Source: Sphingopyxis terrae subsp. terrae NBRC 15098 (GTDB lineage: Bacteria > Pseudomonadota > Alphaproteobacteria > Sphingomonadales > Sphingomonadaceae). Taken from it: 64,000 nt of DNA. The position numbers and the translations under genes are program-made. The stretch is taken from positions 868,001 through 932,000 of the forward strand of contig NZ_CP013342.1 of NCBI RefSeq assembly GCF_001610975.1, given 5' to 3'. Of this stretch, positions 2,447 through 47,978 are shown one piece after another (the stretch's first letter is position 1; the number at the start of each line of letters is the position of its first letter). The notes under the pieces are model-generated. The model was not told the origin of the DNA. It did not search any database and saw only the letters and a program-made list of their open reading frames with translations.

Positions 2447-4489
2447 TCATTTACCCGCGGCAAGGCGCATGGCGGCGCCGCCGCCGGGCGCGAGCCACAG
2501 GGTATAGCTATCACCCTTTTTCACCTTGATCCTGTCGTATGCGATGCTGTGCCGCGCTTCGGTCAGATAAGTGGCGCCGTCGCCGTCCTTATAAATCGTC
2601 GCGACGTAGGTTCTGCCCGGTTCCAGAAAGTCGAAGCGCAGCGTCAACGTCCGCGCCGTCGCATCGTTGACGCCGCCAACATACCAGTCAGCACTGTTGC
2701 GGTCCTTGCGCGCGAAAATAGCATAATCCCCGACCTCGCCCGCGATCAGGTGGCTTTCCGACCAGTCGGCCGGCACTGTCGAGATGAAATCGAGCTCGCG
2801 CGGAAACTTCTCCAGCGTTTCGGGGAAATCGGCCGCCATCTGGATCGGCGAATAGATGGCGAGATAGAGGCCGAGCTGCTTCGCCAGCGTCGAAGCCAGC
2901 GGCGCATGGTTCGCACCCTCGAGACTGAGGACCCCTGGCGTGAAGTCCATCGGCCCCGACAGCATCCGCGTATAGACGAGCGTCGGTTCGTGATCGGGGC
3001 CGTTTGCGAAGGCGCCCCAGGCATTATATTCCATGCCCCGGGCGCCTTCGCGTGCGACCCAGTTGGGATAGGTGCGGCGAAGACCGGTGTCCTTCACCGG
3101 CTCGTGCGGATCGACCGCCACATGATATTTGGCGGCGGTCTGGACGACCTTCAGATGATGCTGCACTTGGCGCTGGCCGTCGTGCCACTCCATCGCAACG
3201 CTGTCGGCGGTGTCGCCCGGCGCGATGATGCCGCCCGCGTCGGCGACATAGCCGGTCTTGACCGTCCCGACGCCGAGCCGGCCGTACAGCTTCATCGCAT
3301 CGTCGAGCTGCGCCTCGTAAACCTTGATATTCCCGCCGGTTTCATGGTGTCCGATCAGCTGGACATGCTTAGCGCGGGCATAGTCGGTAACCGCCTTCAG
3401 GTCGAAATCGGGAGTCGCCTCGGTAAAGCTGAACTCGTCGCCGTGGCCGAACCAGTTGCCGTTCCAGCCCTTGTTCCAGCCCTCGACCAGCACGCCGCCG
3501 AAGCCGTGCTTGGCTGCGAAATCGATCGTCGCTTTCGTGCGCTCGGTTGTCGCGCCATGCTTCGGCCCCTCGGCCCAGGTCCAATCGCCGCGGATCATGC
3601 CCCACCAGATGCCGACATATTTCATCGGCTTGAACCAGCTGACATCGCCCAGCTTGTTCGGTTCGTTGAGATTGAGCTCGAGGTCGCTTTCGACCAGCCC
3701 CGCCGCGCTGTCCGCAATGCGGATCGTGCGCCATGGCGTCGCGAACGGCAGGTCGCGCACGACGCGCGGCCCCTTCGACGAGGGTGCCAGCGTGGCGCGG
3801 AATTTCTGCCCTTCGGCGCGCTTCAGCCACATCCCCGAATAGTCGACGAGCGCTGCCTCGTGGAACGACAGATGCGTCCCGTCGTCGAGCCGCACGGTCA
3901 TCGGGGTGTGCGCGGTGGCGACGGCATCGACCGGCGTCTTTTGATAGATTTGCTCGTACCGGTTCCACTCGCCGGCGGTGATCCACCACGCCTTGCCCTT
4001 GGGCACCAGGTCGAACTCGGTGATTTCCTCGGCAATCTTCGCGGTCTTGAGCCCCGCCTGCTCGGGGAGCTCGTAGCGAAAGCCGATGCCGTCGTCGAAC
4101 AGGCGGAAGCGGACGTTCATCGCATGGCCGCCCCAGCTTTCGTTCTGGCGCAGGCGAACGAGCAGTTCGTTGTGGTGGTCGCGCACGAAGCGGCGTTCGC
4201 CCCAAGGCTGTTCCCAGCGGCTGTCAGCGCTCGCGCGCTCGATGCCATCGATCGCGAAGCCGCGCTGGAGGCCGATCCCGTCGGTGAGCAGGAAGCCGAG
4301 CTTCGACGGCGCGAACAGCAATTGCCCCTTGCGCGACAGCGACCAGGTCGGCCGCTGATCGTTGTCGGTCGCGACGGTCAGCACCAGGCTACCGTCGGGC
4401 GAGGTTGCGGTGACCGACGCGGGCGCCTCCTGCGCGACGGCGGGTGACGCGGCGAGAAGCGCGAGCGGGGCAAGGCGAAGCATGGACAT
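2447..4489 (-). CDS. Glycoside hydrolase family 97 alpha-glucosidase (SusB-like)
   Basis: This 680-aa secreted or periplasmic enzyme would release glucose from the non-reducing ends of alpha-glucans. It has a signal peptide (MSMLRLAPLALLAASPAVAQ), an N-terminal beta-sandwich, and a barrel with GVLVEGWNKGWNGNW, a HHETGG motif, VKTGYVADAG, HEPVKDTGLRRTYPN and GPMDFTPG. These match GH97, and the HHETGG and YPNWVAREG glutamates match the inverting (SusB) subgroup. The start at 4489 is chosen because its ATG overlaps the stop of the upstream GH13 gene in a TGATG arrangement and begins exactly at the signal peptide; an in-frame start 33 bp further upstream would add a non-signal leader. Confidence 0.9.
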   Translation of the reverse strand: MSMLRLAPLALLAASPAVAQEAPASVTATSPDGSLVLTVATDNDQRPTWSLSRKGQLLFAPSKLGFLLTDGIGLQRGFAIDGIERASADSRWEQPWGERRFVRDHHNELLVRLRQNESWGGHAMNVRFRLFDDGIGFRYELPEQAGLKTAKIAEEITEFDLVPKGKAWWITAGEWNRYEQIYQKTPVDAVATAHTPMTVRLDDGTHLSFHEAALVDYSGMWLKRAEGQKFRATLAPSSKGPRVVRDLPFATPWRTIRIADSAAGLVESDLELNLNEPNKLGDVSWFKPMKYVGIWWGMIRGDWTWAEGPKHGATTERTKATIDFAAKHGFGGVLVEGWNKGWNGNWFGHGDEFSFTEATPDFDLKAVTDYARAKHVQLIGHHETGGNIKVYEAQLDDAMKLYGRLGVGTVKTGYVADAGGIIAPGDTADSVAMEWHDGQRQVQHHLKVVQTAAKYHVAVDPHEPVKDTGLRRTYPNWVAREGARGMEYNAWGAFANGPDHEPTLVYTRMLSGPMDFTPGVLSLEGANHAPLASTLAKQLGLYLAIYSPIQMAADFPETLEKFPRELDFISTVPADWSESHLIAGEVGDYAIFARKDRNSADWYVGGVNDATARTLTLRFDFLEPGRTYVATIYKDGDGATYLTEARHSIAYDRIKVKKGDSYTLWLAPGGGAAMRLAAGK

Positions 4490-6129
4490 CAATGTTCGAT
4501 CCGGATCCAGAGGGCACCGCAAGGCGGCAAGGTGTCGGCGTCGGCCCCATTGATCGCCACGATCGGCGTTCCGCCGCGATGCTGCGCGGCAATGTCAATG
4601 GACTCCCCGCCGAGGTTGAAGAGGCAGCGGATCGTTTCGCCTCCGGTCACGCGGTCGAAGACCAGCAGGTCGCCTTCGGCCACCCAGCCGCCGTCGCGGC
4701 CGTGACGGAGCGCGGGATGCGCTGCCCGCAGCGCGACGAGCCGCCGCGTCAGGTTGAGCAGCGACGCGGGGTCGCTATCCTGCCGGTCCACCGCGAGGCC
4801 GGCGTGCGCGTCACCCAGCGGCAGCCACGGACTGGCGGACGAAAATCCGGCATGCGCCGCATCCCCCGCCCACGGCAACGGCGTCCGCGCGCCGTCGCGC
4901 GACAGGGTCAGCGGCCAGTTCTTCAGCGCTTCGGGATCCTTGACCATCTCGAACGGGATATCGACCTGATCGAGCCCCAGTTCCTCGCCATTATAGATGA
5001 TGATGTTGCCGCGCAGCGCACACAGCAGCGCCATCTTCATGCGCGAATAGGCGGCGGCATCGACGCCGGCGGGCGTCCAGCGCGACACCGCGCGCGGCGC
5101 GTCGTGGTTTTCAAAGGCCCAGCTCGGCCAGCCGATACCCGGCGCGTCGGGCCATTGCTCGGCAGCTTCGCGAACGAGCTTCGGCGTCAGCCGGTCGGCG
5201 TAGAGGAAGTCGAAACCATAGGCGCTGTTCAGGCGCCGGTCGCCCGCGGTGAACAGCTTCATCTCGCGCACCGCATCGTCGCCGCCAACCTCGGCGACGG
5301 TGAAGCTGCCGCCATATTCGTCGGTCAGCGCGCGAATGCGTTCGAGGAACAGCGGGATGTCGGGATGCGACTGGTTGTAGATTTTCAGCTGAAAATCGAA
5401 CGGCCGGGTGCGGACCTTGTTCGACGGCGGCGCCGGCGGATTGTCGCGCAATTCGGGATCGTGCATCGCAAAATTGATCGCGTCGATGCGGAACCCGTTG
5501 ACGCCGCGGTCGAGCCAGAAGCGGACCACGTTCAGCAACGCATCCTGCACCGCGCGGTTGTGGACGTTGAGCTGCGGCTGGGTCCCCAGGAAATTGTGCA
5601 TATAATATTGGCCGCGCCGCGCGTCCCACGTCCATGCCGGACCGCCGAACACCGACTGCCAATTAGTCGGCGGCGAGCCGTCGGGCTTCGCATCGGCCCA
5701 GACATACCAGTCGGCCATCGCATTATCCCTGCTCGCGCGGCTGGTCGCGAACCAGTCGTGCCGATCCGACGTGTGTGCAAAGACAAGGTCGGTCGTCACC
5801 TTCAGACCCAGCGCGTGCGCGCGCGCGACGAGCGCGTCGAAATCGTCGAGCGTCCCGAAGATCGGATCGACGCCGTAATAATCGGCAATGTCGTATCCGA
5901 AATCGTCCATTGGCGAGGGATAGAAGGGCGACAGCCAGATTGCATCGACACCCAGCGAGGCAACATAATCGAGCCGCGCGGTGATGCCGGCCAGATCGCC
6001 GATCCCGTCGCCGTTTGAATCGGCAAAGCTGCGCGGATAAATCTGGTAGATCGCCGCGCCCTTCCACCACGGCAGGTCGGCGTCGGCGACGGCGTGCGGT
6101 TGTTTGGCAAGGCTATGGTTCGTCGTCAC
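4489..6129 (-). CDS. GH13 alpha-glucosidase
   Basis: This 546-aa member of the alpha-amylase superfamily probably hydrolyses maltose and short maltodextrins. The start is WWKGAAIYQIYPRSFADS, typical of alpha-glucosidase and oligo-1,6-glucosidase. Catalytic regions are visible: DLVFAHTSD (region I), GFRIDAINF with the nucleophile Asp (II), FTVAEVGG with the acid/base Glu (III) and FENHDAPR (IV). No signal peptide is evident, so it is probably cytoplasmic. It lies 15 bp downstream of the GH13 amylase and overlaps the GH97 gene, which shows operon structure. Maltose specificity is inferred from context. Confidence 0.9.
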   Translation of the reverse strand: MTTNHSLAKQPHAVADADLPWWKGAAIYQIYPRSFADSNGDGIGDLAGITARLDYVASLGVDAIWLSPFYPSPMDDFGYDIADYYGVDPIFGTLDDFDALVARAHALGLKVTTDLVFAHTSDRHDWFATSRASRDNAMADWYVWADAKPDGSPPTNWQSVFGGPAWTWDARRGQYYMHNFLGTQPQLNVHNRAVQDALLNVVRFWLDRGVNGFRIDAINFAMHDPELRDNPPAPPSNKVRTRPFDFQLKIYNQSHPDIPLFLERIRALTDEYGGSFTVAEVGGDDAVREMKLFTAGDRRLNSAYGFDFLYADRLTPKLVREAAEQWPDAPGIGWPSWAFENHDAPRAVSRWTPAGVDAAAYSRMKMALLCALRGNIIIYNGEELGLDQVDIPFEMVKDPEALKNWPLTLSRDGARTPLPWAGDAAHAGFSSASPWLPLGDAHAGLAVDRQDSDPASLLNLTRRLVALRAAHPALRHGRDGGWVAEGDLLVFDRVTGGETIRCLFNLGGESIDIAAQHRGGTPIVAINGADADTLPPCGALWIRIEH

Positions 6130-44380: not shown

Positions 44381-44411
44381 TAAAGCCGACGTTGCACGAC
44401 AACCGGCTTTA
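44381..44411. terminator. Convergent-gene hairpin
   Basis: TAAAGCCG (44381-44388) and CGGCTTTA (44404-44411) form an 8-bp inverted repeat with a 15-nt loop between the MocR gene and the anti-sigma gene stops, overlapping the latter. Confidence 0.5.
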
Positions 44412-45104
44412 GCGGTCCCAGCCAGCGTCACGGGCAGCGCGTTCGGCTGCGGCATCGAACGCATCACCTGCCATCATCGCTGCCGTAGCCGCCGCGAGGT
44501 CGCCCGACGACGCCTGCCGGTACGCGCGGGCCTTCTGACCGGCCGCGGTGCGTTCGAGCGCCCAGCGACCGTCTTCGCGGCAGCCGATGCCCGACAAGTC
44601 GCGACCCGCGAAGCTGCGGCAGATACGGCCCGCCCTATCGCGAAAGCTCAGAGCGATGCGGATATCGGCGTCGGCCGGCTGATTCGATGCCAGCTGCGTG
44701 TCGAGCGCTTCGGCCAGACCTCCCGACGCGACCAGCATACCGTTGGCACTGGTCACGTCCGGCGCCGGCGCCCAAGGCCGGAGGCCGAGGGTCAGACCCA
44801 GCAGCAGCGATGCGGCGATAGCGCCCCAATTGGCGGGCGCGAACCGCGCGCGCCTTGCTTCGCGGCGCTCGGACAGGCTGGTGTCCACGCCCTCCCCGAC
44901 CAACAAGGCGCGCAGGCGATCAGGCACCGGTTCATCGACCACAGGTGCGAAATGCGCGGAAATCTGGGCGCTCAGCACACGATAACGCGCAATCTCGGCA
45001 GCGAGGGCGGCGTCGCTTTCAGCGTCGCGTTCGATCCGGCGCGCGGTCAGATCGTCGAGTTCGCCGTCGACATAAGCAGCGATGGTAGCGGGGTCGAAGC
45101 TCAT
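44409..45104 (-). CDS. Transmembrane anti-sigma factor
   Basis: This 231-aa protein starts with TIAAYVDGELDDLTARRIER, typical of anti-sigma factors that bind ECF sigma factors at the N-terminus. It has a single membrane span at about residues 93-112 (GAIAASLLLGLTLGL) and an outer domain of about 110 residues with a Cys pair (RICRSF, GIGCRED). It overlaps the sigma gene by 4 bp (ATGA), the standard sigma/anti-sigma layout. The zinc-binding HxxxCxxC motif is absent, so it is not a ZAS-type anti-sigma. Confidence 0.85.
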   Translation of the reverse strand: MSFDPATIAAYVDGELDDLTARRIERDAESDAALAAEIARYRVLSAQISAHFAPVVDEPVPDRLRALLVGEGVDTSLSERREARRARFAPANWGAIAASLLLGLTLGLRPWAPAPDVTSANGMLVASGGLAEALDTQLASNQPADADIRIALSFRDRAGRICRSFAGRDLSGIGCREDGRWALERTAAGQKARAYRQASSGDLAAATAAMMAGDAFDAAAERAARDAGWDR

Positions 45105-45589
45105 GCGGCCTCTCCAAGCAAATGCATCAGCGTTTCACGTCCACGCGCGAGCCGCGATGTCACGGTGCCGATCGGCACCTCCAATATGTCCGCCGCCTCG
45201 CGATAGGCATAGCCTTCCACCAGCACGAGCATCACAACCTCGCGCTGCTCATCAGGAAGCCGGGCCATCGCGCCGTCGACGTCGCCGCGCAGCGCGCCCG
45301 CCTCAACCTCGGCGATCCCGTCGCCGGCGATCTGCGTGACCGCGTCGTCAATCGGGGTATGGACGCCGCGCCGGCCAGCAACACGGCGGTGGTCGATCCA
45401 GAGGTTGCGGGTGATCCGGTACATCCAGCTGTCCAGTCTCGTTCCTTGTTGCCATTGTTCGCGCGATTTCAAGGCGCGCTCGATCGCCGCCTGACACAGG
45501 TCGTCGGCATCGCTGGCGCTCTGCGCCAGCCCGCGCGCAAAGCGACGCAGGCGCGGTAACAGCTCGACCAGTTCCTCTTCGAAGCGCAT
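45101..45589 (-). CDS. ECF RNA polymerase sigma factor
   Basis: This 162-aa sigma-70-type ECF factor has region 2 (DADDLCQAAIERAL and WMYRITRNLWIDHRRVAGRR, residues 28-73) and region 4 (LPDEQREVVMLVLVEGYAYREAADILEVPIGTVTSRLARGRE, residues 111-152). The ATG at 45589 lies in the divergent gap near the palindromic promoter at 45612-45643, whose minus-strand half is 29 bp before the start. That fits autoregulation. With the adjacent anti-sigma factor it controls, by inference, the protease and glycine-rich protein genes on the other side. Confidence 0.92.
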   Translation of the reverse strand: MRFEEELVELLPRLRRFARGLAQSASDADDLCQAAIERALKSREQWQQGTRLDSWMYRITRNLWIDHRRVAGRRGVHTPIDDAVTQIAGDGIAEVEAGALRGDVDGAMARLPDEQREVVMLVLVEGYAYREAADILEVPIGTVTSRLARGRETLMHLLGEAA

Positions 45590-45611
45590 CGCTCTCTTTT
45601 CGGTTGTTTGA

Positions 45612-45643
45612 GGAAGAAACGATGACCTTCTATCGTTTCTTCC
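45612..45643. promoter_or_regulatory. Palindromic bidirectional ECF promoter
   Basis: GGAAGAAACGAT (45612-45623) and ATCGTTTCTTCC (45632-45643) are exact 12-bp inverted arms. On each strand they read GGAAG-N17-CGTT, an ECF-type -35/-10 pair. The plus-strand promoter serves the protease, the minus-strand one the sigma operon. The same GGAAG-N17-CGTT recurs at 46981. Confidence 0.75.
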
Positions 45644-45689
45644 ACATCCTGCTAAATTTTCCGGCAAGACGATGGGCGCGAGAGTAACG

Positions 45690-46961
45690 ATGCGAATCTG
45701 GACGACAGGGCTGGTGGCAATCTGCCTCGCGATCGGCGGTGCTGGTCCGCGTGCAGCGGCGCAGGTCGCGCTGCCGTCGGCGCAGTTGCCCGAGGCCGGG
45801 CGGGTCCTGTCAACGCTGCCCGACACGGGTGTCCTTGAACGTCTGGTCGCGACGAGCGAGCGGCTGACGCAGCTTCGGCTCGACCGCATCGACGCGCTGG
45901 TGCGTAACCATCGCGACAGCATCGAGCTCGACGATCGCGGCGAGCCCGCGGTGCGCGGCGTGCTGATCGCCAGCGGCGTCGACGACGCCATGATCCGGCG
46001 TGCGGCAGAGGCAGGTTTCGCCCTGATCGAGCGCGAGCGTATCGAGGGACTCGATCTCGATCTTGCACGATTTTCTGTGCCCGAAGGGCGCCGCCTGGCC
46101 CGCGCGCGCAAACAGCTTGCGAAGCTGCTGCCCGCTGCCGCGGTCGATGCCGACAATCTCTATTTCGCGAGCGGCCCCGGCGGCGCACTGCCCAGGTCGG
46201 CGCTCGCGACGACTGCGGGCGGCGGCAAGGCCAGCCTTGGCCTGATCGACGGCGGGGTCGCGGCGCATCCGTCGCTGGCGGGGCGTGTCGAGCAGCGCGG
46301 CTTTGCAAGGGGCGCCCCGACGGCGAGCCGCCACGGCACGGCGGTTGCCTCGCTGCTCGTCGGCAGCGGCGCGATAACGGGCGCCGCCGCCGGACAGCGG
46401 CTACTGGCCGCCGATGTCTATGGCACCGATCCCGCCGGCGGGAACGCCAGCGCGATCGCCCGTGCGCTCGGCTGGCTTGCGCAAAGCCGCGTCGCGGTGA
46501 CGACGATCAGCCTGGTCGGTCCCGACAACAAGCTGCTGTCGGCCGCGGTGCGGCGTGCGCAACAGCGCGGAATGTTTATCGTCGCCGCGGTCGGCAACGA
46601 CGGGCCCGCAGCGCCGCCCGCCTATCCGGCCTCCTATCGGGGTGTTTTTGCGGTGACCGGCGTCGACGCGAAAGGGCGCGTTCTACCCGAGGCGGGCCGC
46701 GCGCTGCACGTCGATTTCGCCGCACCCGGCGATGCGGTGCTGGCGGCGACGGGCACCGCGGGCACCGACCGGCTGCGCGGAACCTCCTTTGCCGCACCGC
46801 TCGTTGCGGGGCGGCTGGCCCTTCGCTATCCCGCTCCATCGGTGGACCGCATCGGTCCGGCCGTCACCGGGCTGGTGATGGAAGCGCGCGACCTTGGCCA
46901 TAAGGGGCGCGACAAAGTCTACGGCCATGGCCTGATTTGCGGCGCTTGCGGCGGCCGCTGA
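45690..46961 (+). CDS. Secreted S8 (subtilisin-type) serine protease
   Basis: This 423-aa exported protease has a signal peptide (WTTGLVAICLAIGGAGPRAAAQ), an N-terminal propeptide-like domain of about 150 residues, and the subtilisin triad Asp (GLIDGGV, about 187), His (SRHGTAVASLL, about 215) and Ser (GTSFAAPLVAG, about 366). The usual DTG reads DGG. An oxyanion Asn lies in AVGNDGPAAPPAYPA. The ATG at 45690 begins directly at the signal. The gene follows the divergent ECF promoter, so it is probably induced by the ECF factor in envelope or surface stress. Confidence 0.88.
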   Translation: MRIWTTGLVAICLAIGGAGPRAAAQVALPSAQLPEAGRVLSTLPDTGVLERLVATSERLTQLRLDRIDALVRNHRDSIELDDRGEPAVRGVLIASGVDDAMIRRAAEAGFALIERERIEGLDLDLARFSVPEGRRLARARKQLAKLLPAAAVDADNLYFASGPGGALPRSALATTAGGGKASLGLIDGGVAAHPSLAGRVEQRGFARGAPTASRHGTAVASLLVGSGAITGAAAGQRLLAADVYGTDPAGGNASAIARALGWLAQSRVAVTTISLVGPDNKLLSAAVRRAQQRGMFIVAAVGNDGPAAPPAYPASYRGVFAVTGVDAKGRVLPEAGRALHVDFAAPGDAVLAATGTAGTDRLRGTSFAAPLVAGRLALRYPAPSVDRIGPAVTGLVMEARDLGHKGRDKVYGHGLICGACGGR

Positions 46962-46980: not shown

Positions 46981-47006
46981 GGAAGAAAGTCGAACACGCC
47001 ATCGTT
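46981..47006 (+). promoter_or_regulatory. ECF-type promoter of the glycine-rich protein gene
   Basis: GGAAG (46981-46985) and CGTT (47003-47006) are separated by exactly 17 bp. The site shares GGAAGAAA and ATCGTT with the divergent promoter at 45612. The expected transcription start is about 40 bp before the gene start at 47055. Confidence 0.65.
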
Positions 47007-47054: not shown

Positions 47055-47978
47055 ATGGCACATCGTATTTTCATTCCGGCCATCGCGCTCGCCGCCACGG
47101 CCATGGCATTTTCGACGCCCGCTTCGGCGCAGCTGCTGGGCGGCAGCGGCGGACTGACCGGCGGCCTCGGCGGATCGCTGGGCGGTACGCTCGGCAATCC
47201 GGCCGGTCCCATCGGCGGCACGCTCGGCAGCGCGGGCGAACTTGGCGGCACCGGCCGCGGCGACGCGAATATCGACCGCCGCTCGGGCCGTGTGCAGGGC
47301 AAGGGCAATGCAGGGGCAAACGGCAAGGGCACGGCGAACGGAAACGCCAATCTTCTCGGCAACCCGATCGGCGGGACGGTCGATGGCTCCGGCAGTGCTT
47401 CGGGCAACGGCAGCCTCGACGCGCAGGCCGTCGGAACCGATTTCGTCGGCCAGACCGCACGCAGCGCCGTCGGCACGGCGCAAGGAACCGCTTCGACCGT
47501 CACCGGAACGGCGCGCGGCGCGGTCGGCAACGTCCGCGATCGAACGGGTGGCGCAGCTTCGGGCCTTTCGGGTGCCGCGAACGGCGCGGGCTCAGGAGCG
47601 GGCGGCTTCCAGGGCAGCCTTGGCCAGTTGGCCGTCGCGGGCAGCGGCGCCGCATCGGGCGCGGGCGTGTTCGCGGTCGAACCCGGCATGGCGGTGACCG
47701 ACGCGCGCGGCAAGGTAATCGGCTATGTTCAGGATATCCGTCAGACCGGCCGCGGTGTTGTGCAGGCGGTGACAGTCGAGGTCGGCAACCGTGTCGCGAC
47801 GATCCCCGCCGCAAGCTTTACCGGATCGGGCGATGTCCTCGTCACCGGCATGACCAAGGGCGAGCTAAAGAAAGCGGCCGAACGGCAGCAAGATGCCGGC
47901 GGCCAGCCGCAGAACGAGGCCGCTCCGCAGGCCGCACCCGCGGGCCAGCGCGCCGAGCGCGGCGCCCGCAAAGATTGA
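47055..47978 (+). CDS. Secreted glycine-rich protein with PRC-barrel-like tail
   Basis: This 307-aa exported protein has a signal peptide (IALAATAMAFSTPASAQ), a low-complexity glycine/serine/alanine-rich middle (GGSGGLTGGLGGSLGG and repeats rich in GNA, GTA), and a folded tail (about residues 210-275: AVEPGMAVTDARGKVIGYV and VVQAVTVEVGNRVATIP) that resembles a PRC-barrel. The C-terminus is basic and disordered. It is probably a surface or periplasmic matrix component under the ECF factor. No function is established. Confidence 0.75.
   Translation: MAHRIFIPAIALAATAMAFSTPASAQLLGGSGGLTGGLGGSLGGTLGNPAGPIGGTLGSAGELGGTGRGDANIDRRSGRVQGKGNAGANGKGTANGNANLLGNPIGGTVDGSGSASGNGSLDAQAVGTDFVGQTARSAVGTAQGTASTVTGTARGAVGNVRDRTGGAASGLSGAANGAGSGAGGFQGSLGQLAVAGSGAASGAGVFAVEPGMAVTDARGKVIGYVQDIRQTGRGVVQAVTVEVGNRVATIPAASFTGSGDVLVTGMTKGELKKAAERQQDAGGQPQNEAAPQAAPAGQRAERGARKD

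Follow-up and report, generated by a model that had tools for sequence, protein, structure and literature searches.

A conserved 32-bp palindrome between an ECF sigma factor gene and a subtilase gene as a strong candidate for two superimposed, opposed promoters

The window, by which we mean the whole 64-kb stretch of DNA that was analysed, is part of a genome of 3.98 Mb. On its minus strand, positions 45101-45589 encode a protein of 162 aa which matches Pfam Sigma70_r2 and Sigma70_r4_2 as well as NCBIfam sigma70-ECF, all above the cut-off. This protein contains only the sigma regions 2 and 4, its size fits membership in the ECF (group IV) sigma factors, its solved ECF relatives include 6jcy and 5zx2, and its identity to Sphingopyxis homologues reaches 94%. 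The end of the sigma gene is overlapped by the gene of a probable anti-sigma factor (44409-45104, minus strand, 231 aa), whose position directly after the sigma gene is kept among homologues. The product shows a single hydrophobic stretch by eye and matches NCBIfam antisigma (24.5 of 100 bits) and Pfam NepR (20.1 of 25.7 bits) below the cut-off. On the plus strand, an S8 subtilase is encoded at 45690-46961 with an alternative longer start at 45672 (Pfam Peptidase_S8, 89.2 bits; apparent signal peptide by eye). It is followed by the gene of a glycine-rich protein (47055-47978, plus strand) with an apparent signal peptide by eye, for which Pfam and NCBIfam searches gave no match.

The ECF sigma gene and the protease gene flank a 32-bp palindrome, as described in the initial annotation, whose coordinates 45612-45643 proved to be exact. 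Its sequence is GGAAGAAACGATGACCTTCTATCGTTTCTTCC, or GGAAGAAACG-N12-CGTTTCTTCC when written with 10-bp arms. It is the only match in the window at up to three mismatches, and none of 100 dinucleotide-preserving shuffles of the window contained a match. Together with a count of zero for the order-wide reversed-pattern control (see below), this excluded a chance origin of the palindrome. The motif GGAAG-N17-CGTT had been noticed in both directions, and a genome-wide scan indeed returned both copies, at 45612-45637 on the plus strand and at 45643-45618 on the minus strand. As this motif occurs at 22 sites in the genome, fewer than the 38 of the reversed-pattern control, it carries little weight by itself, and the palindrome with its placement constitutes the non-chance part.

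Key evidence is provided by a site that was absent from the initial annotation, i.e. a predicted one-way sister promoter, GGAAGAAA-N14-CGTT, at 46981-47006 on the plus strand, which precedes the glycine-rich gene. GGAWKAA-N15-CGTT has five exact matches in the genome: both strands of the palindrome, this one-way site, and two sites away from the locus overlapping ORFs, one located inside an ORF (L021) and the other overlapping ORFs on both strands (L133). Also in relatives, a one-way site precedes the glycine-rich gene, and some of them carry one beyond the far side of the anti-sigma gene as well. Because the one-way promoters of the same loci show this form, the promoter was defined as GGAWKAAA-N14-CGTT. 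Thereby, an arm of the palindrome can be read as a -35 element fused to the reverse complement of a -10 element (GGAWKAAA and AACG give GGAWKAAACG) with each -35 overlapping the opposite -10, so that the palindrome comprises two opposed ECF-type promoters, fully superimposed. The predicted protease-directed promoter spans 45612-45637 on the plus strand, with the -35 element GGAAGAAA at 45612-45619 and the -10 element CGTT at 45634-45637, and its transcript would start near 45644. The predicted sigma-directed promoter spans 45618-45643 on the minus strand, with GGAAGAAA at 45643-45636 and CGTT at 45621-45618, and a start is expected near 45611-45609. The two-part motif is found in front of both the sigma operon and other genes in the locus, in keeping with ECF membership of the sigma factor. 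A wide regulon was considered and discarded, since the one-mismatch genome scan (67 + 62 sites vs 35 + 51 in the control) was too noisy.

For analysis of conservation, sigma homologues were retrieved by protein alone, yielding 80 loci, and the upstream DNA was read for the 52 closest among those listed. Three of these (L072-L074) had no such element by eye and were removed before counting; the 49 counted loci (L023-L071) are sphingomonads, and L075-L102 lay outside the inspected set. Both promoters, requiring at least 6 of 8 positions of the -35 and 4 of 4 of the -10 on each strand, were present in 48 of the 49 loci, and 45 of the 49 carried a perfect double promoter. The lone exception (L060) has no protease homologue alongside. 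Searching 296 genomes of the order for GGAWKAAACG-N12-CGTTTCWTCC at up to one mismatch gave 70 copies in 69 genomes, while the reversed-pattern control gave zero in the same genomes. Each of the 70 copies lies just upstream of a sigma homologue; the coordinate difference to the start of the sigma match is 22-58 bases. The sigma protein search covered the same number of genomes of the order (296) under identical handles, and all 79 listed hits with at least 139 bits were entered in the cross-table together with one 115-bit hit in genome G110, which was added since a palindrome adjoined it; weaker hits were left out. A palindrome was found beside 69 of the 72 sigma hits with at least 150 bits. 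The three exceptions were a near-palindrome in G110 (L194), a locus in which no protease was found (G288, L188) and a locus with a distant protease (G237, L189). None of the seven entered hits between 139 and 150 bits had a palindrome. In a class-wide scan at up to one mismatch, 7 of 290 genomes matched: two in the family of the window, three in two other families and two more. In the two other families all three copies are perfect, each flanked by genes for a sigma homologue (48-52% identity) and a divergent protease homologue (38-51%). The last two (L245, L246), both one-mismatch matches from outside the order, are in loci without these genes: one promoter half is damaged, the six window proteins searched gave no match, and the two were taken as chance.

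The tie to the divergent protease was analyzed in a wider set of 90 loci, comprising the window, the 49 sphingomonad loci, 20 loci retrieved for the palindrome and 20 sigma hits taken mostly for palindrome absence (19 having no copy within one mismatch and one having it). The double promoter was present in 70 of 71 loci with an estimated protease start within 260 nt, in 1 of 16 loci with a more distant protease (L031) and in 0 of 3 loci without a detected divergent protease homologue; 40 of the 90 loci were chosen by outcome, and the unbiased figure is therefore the 48 of 49 given above. In the exceptional locus among the 71 (L198), the palindrome is missing and the estimated distance to the protease start is 233 nt. 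In two of the three loci without a detected divergent protease homologue, the sigma-directed promoter was intact or nearly so: L060 keeps it (7 of 8 and 4 of 4) with CGGT as reverse -10, and L188 keeps it completely (8 of 8 and 4 of 4) with just 3 of 8 positions in the reverse -35. Damage to the protease-directed -35 (6 or 7 of 8) was also observed in L041, L059 and L194, where a protease is present. When the 90 sigma proteins were arranged in a tree, three changes were needed to account for the palindromic rows, namely one split from a supported 17-row set and the rows L060 and L188. A tree of 68 rows, to which the three copies from other families had been added and in which Sphingopyxis was thinned to 15 rows, needed three changes again with bootstrap unsettled; both trees were midpoint-rooted, so the relative age of the layouts is not readable from them. 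The palindrome is kept across genera and broken in the two protease-less relatives within the clade, which suggests selection for two-way use.

To compare the arms, 56 distinct palindromes were set against the 78 distinct one-way sites that the same loci yielded to a pattern fixing positions 1-3, 6, 7 and 23-26 and restricting positions 4-5. Arm positions 1-10 pair with their partner in 41 to 56 of the 56 distinct copies and positions 11-16 in only 10 to 34, in counts which, like the conservation figures, include kin loci and are uncorrected for kinship. The 12-bp arms originally proposed therefore apply to the sequence in the window, but across relatives just the outer 10 bp act as arms. Positions 9-10, belonging to the opposite -10, read CG in 56 of 56 palindromes, and positions 30-32 at the end of the opposite -35 read TCC in all 56, whereas both are variable in one-way sites. 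Neither in palindromes nor in one-way sites is the spacer very informative. The base at position 4 of the -35, A or T, was compared 80 times across the two arms and the one-way promoter and was identical in 75 cases (A throughout in 40, T throughout in 35), only the protease-directed arm differing in the other 5, as predicted if one shared sigma factor reads every site. Within the recognition-helix stretch SRLARGR of region 4, an A stands at sigma residue 148 in 44 of 49 GGAA loci and a V in 29 of 32 GGAT loci. This residue is a candidate for -35 specificity, and kinship alone could explain its tracking of base 4.

Other explanations of the palindrome have to be weighed against these data. It might be the operator of a dimeric transcription factor controlling both genes, with the likeness to ECF promoters being secondary; two inverted 10-bp half sites at a distance of 22 bp would be well suited to binding by a dimer, and the arms are kept far better than the centre. 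However, the arm corresponds exactly to a -35 plus a reversed -10, and -35 and -10 pieces at the 17-nt spacing also precede other genes of the locus without any inverted repeat, which leaves only a slight chance for such an operator. Even less likely is an RNA hairpin, an attenuator or terminator, in which the repeat is kept for base pairing. As RNA, the region 45605-45690 does fold with a stem of 12-13 bp (-24.7 kcal/mol, z -2.08), and base 4 of the arms changes jointly on both sides. Yet base 4 also varies in one-way promoters, where a partner arm is absent, and base 5 is unmatched in 15 of 56 copies, 13 of which show the G/T choice found also in one-way sites. Furthermore, the starts predicted from the -10 elements fall at or outside the ends of the palindrome, so neither transcript would hold both arms, and a search for a terminator-like site in 45400-45900 found none. 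We regard this as the least credible of the explanations.

The promoters could also be real but read by the general stress sigma factor EcfG instead of the neighbouring ECF sigma factor. EcfG, whose -10 is likewise CGTT, might in principle recognise the element, and the EcfG of Sphingopyxis granuli uses the similar GGAAC-N16-CGTT according to the part of PMC7083833 available to us. But the sites described here are GGAWK-N17 and not GGAAC-N16, and the AAC of the EcfG -35 is given in the same part of that source as almost invariant (mismatch in 3 of 79). Among all arms examined, no GGAAC -35 was found, all being GGAWK or variants thereof. Reading by EcfG is therefore judged to be very improbable, less so than the hairpin and slightly more so than the operator. 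The EcfG palindrome GGAACG-N15/16-CGTTCC occurred at 46 sites in 37 of 147 genomes and the reversed-pattern control was higher (more than 100), so that palindromy as a general rule for EcfG promoters was rejected.

We consider it highly probable, judging from sequence and conservation, that the element serves the neighbouring ECF sigma factor as a bidirectional promoter, made of superimposed GGAWKAAA-N14-CGTT copies and used in a mutually exclusive manner. Mutually exclusive use had been proposed before and is supported by geometry, as the complete overlap of the promoters makes simultaneous binding by two polymerases implausible. The sigma-polymerase complex would bind the element in either orientation, one polymerase at a time. 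One orientation would lead to transcription of the sigma and anti-sigma genes, i.e. autoregulation, and the opposite one to transcription of the S8 protease gene. At low activity, the directions might be nearly independent, while at high activity they would compete and thereby limit the self-amplification of the sigma factor. In E. coli, competition at bidirectional promoters is reported in the available part of PMC12825309 only when activity is raised; by analogy, a weak signal might lift both transcripts independently and a strong one oppose them. It is conceivable, though somewhat less likely than not, that the locus represents a hard-wired competition device between sigma/anti-sigma and protease, in which self-amplification is capped, the flanks set the ratio, and two-way use is dropped upon loss of the protease.

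The flanking DNA probably biases the choice of direction. An A/T run of at least 6 within 30 nt upstream of the -35 was found for the sigma-directed promoter in 59 of 71 loci and for the protease-directed promoter in 12 of 71 loci. In the window, the A/T tract on the protease side is located at 45653-45660 (no strand assigned); it possibly serves as an UP-like element of the sigma-directed promoter, and may thus favour the sigma-directed complex, or it belongs to the protease leader. The protease-directed -10 is CTATCGTT in 36 of the 39 Sphingopyxis-type loci, and the sigma-directed -10 varies, with 12 of 39 sharing the commonest form. The constant CTATCGTT may favour the protease direction. 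The symmetric output in both directions that had been suggested at first is thus not borne out, since asymmetric flanks and -10 context leave equal output without support.

Bidirectional promoters of E. coli and Salmonella, as described by Warman, Grainger and co-workers in the accessible parts of PMC12825309 and PMC10268837, are housekeeping promoters with a shared symmetric -10 and starts 7-25 bp apart. They have in common with the present element the symmetry of the DNA, one type of polymerase starting both ways and mutually exclusive binding. In contrast to them, whole ECF promoters appear to be superimposed here, with each -35 on the opposite -10. The overlapping -10s and 7-25 bp start distance of Warman et al. 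are not seen: the -10 elements of the palindrome (45618-45621 and 45634-45637) do not overlap, and the predicted starts are expected to be about 33 bp apart. As predicted from its sequence, the element departs from known bidirectional promoters in register and sigma class, with a reciprocal -35/-10 overlap instead of a shared -10. In the hrpL/hrpJ divergent region of Pseudomonas syringae, the ECF holoenzyme was proposed to restrain transcription of its own gene (PMC5263251, available part), which is a partial precedent for a sigma gene restrained via a divergent promoter. There, however, transcription of hrpL depends on sigma-54 and distinct sites are involved, whereas here the same ECF motif points both ways in one palindrome. 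In Alphaproteobacteria, nepR-ecfG and phyR have divergent EcfG-dependent promoters that amplify the response (PMC8103513, PMC7083833, both in the parts available) and likewise represent two divergent units at a sigma locus under the same ECF sigma factor. They differ in that the EcfG palindrome is unenriched in genomes, and 'Palindrom' and 'bidirectional' do not occur in the texts of PMC8103513 and PMC7083833. A literature search mainly at the level of titles and abstract openings, with subscription papers largely outside, found no description of a palindromic ECF promoter.

We therefore see the palindrome as a strong candidate for a promoter that works naturally in both directions, usable by one polymerase at a time. 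Previously described bidirectional promoters, as far as the available parts of the sources go, arise from -10 symmetry, while in this case it is a whole promoter that has been conserved in palindromic form across genera. This would offer a compact natural system for measuring the extent to which sigma autoregulation is limited by competition for a single site, and possibly a two-way part for synthetic circuits driven by a single sigma factor.

Further layouts were observed among the relatives. More distant sigma homologues have no palindrome, and some of them, namely L199, L201, L205 and L206, have two separate divergent GGAATAA-type promoters. One genome (G110) carries two divergent sigma paralogues, the one at L194 with the near-palindrome and the other at L195 (G110:C1:1596200-1600800) with a palindrome of a different -35 flavour, GGAATAAA/GGAAGAAA. 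In L060 from Sphingopyxis sp. JAI108 (3535-4989, minus strand, and upstream of 5001), a second sigma paralogue faces a divergent PAS/HWE histidine kinase gene and not a protease gene. In L031, upstream of 5001, 285 nt separate the palindrome from the sigma start. This exceeds the distance in near relatives by about 260 nt and gives the appearance of a DNA insertion between promoter and gene. In L048, L062 and L070, a one-way promoter about 1.3-1.7 kb downstream of the sigma start precedes a small ORF of 110-125 residues with shared sequence (e.g. PIAGVYN), which faces the anti-sigma gene; the corresponding position in the window is occupied by a GntR/aminotransferase gene.
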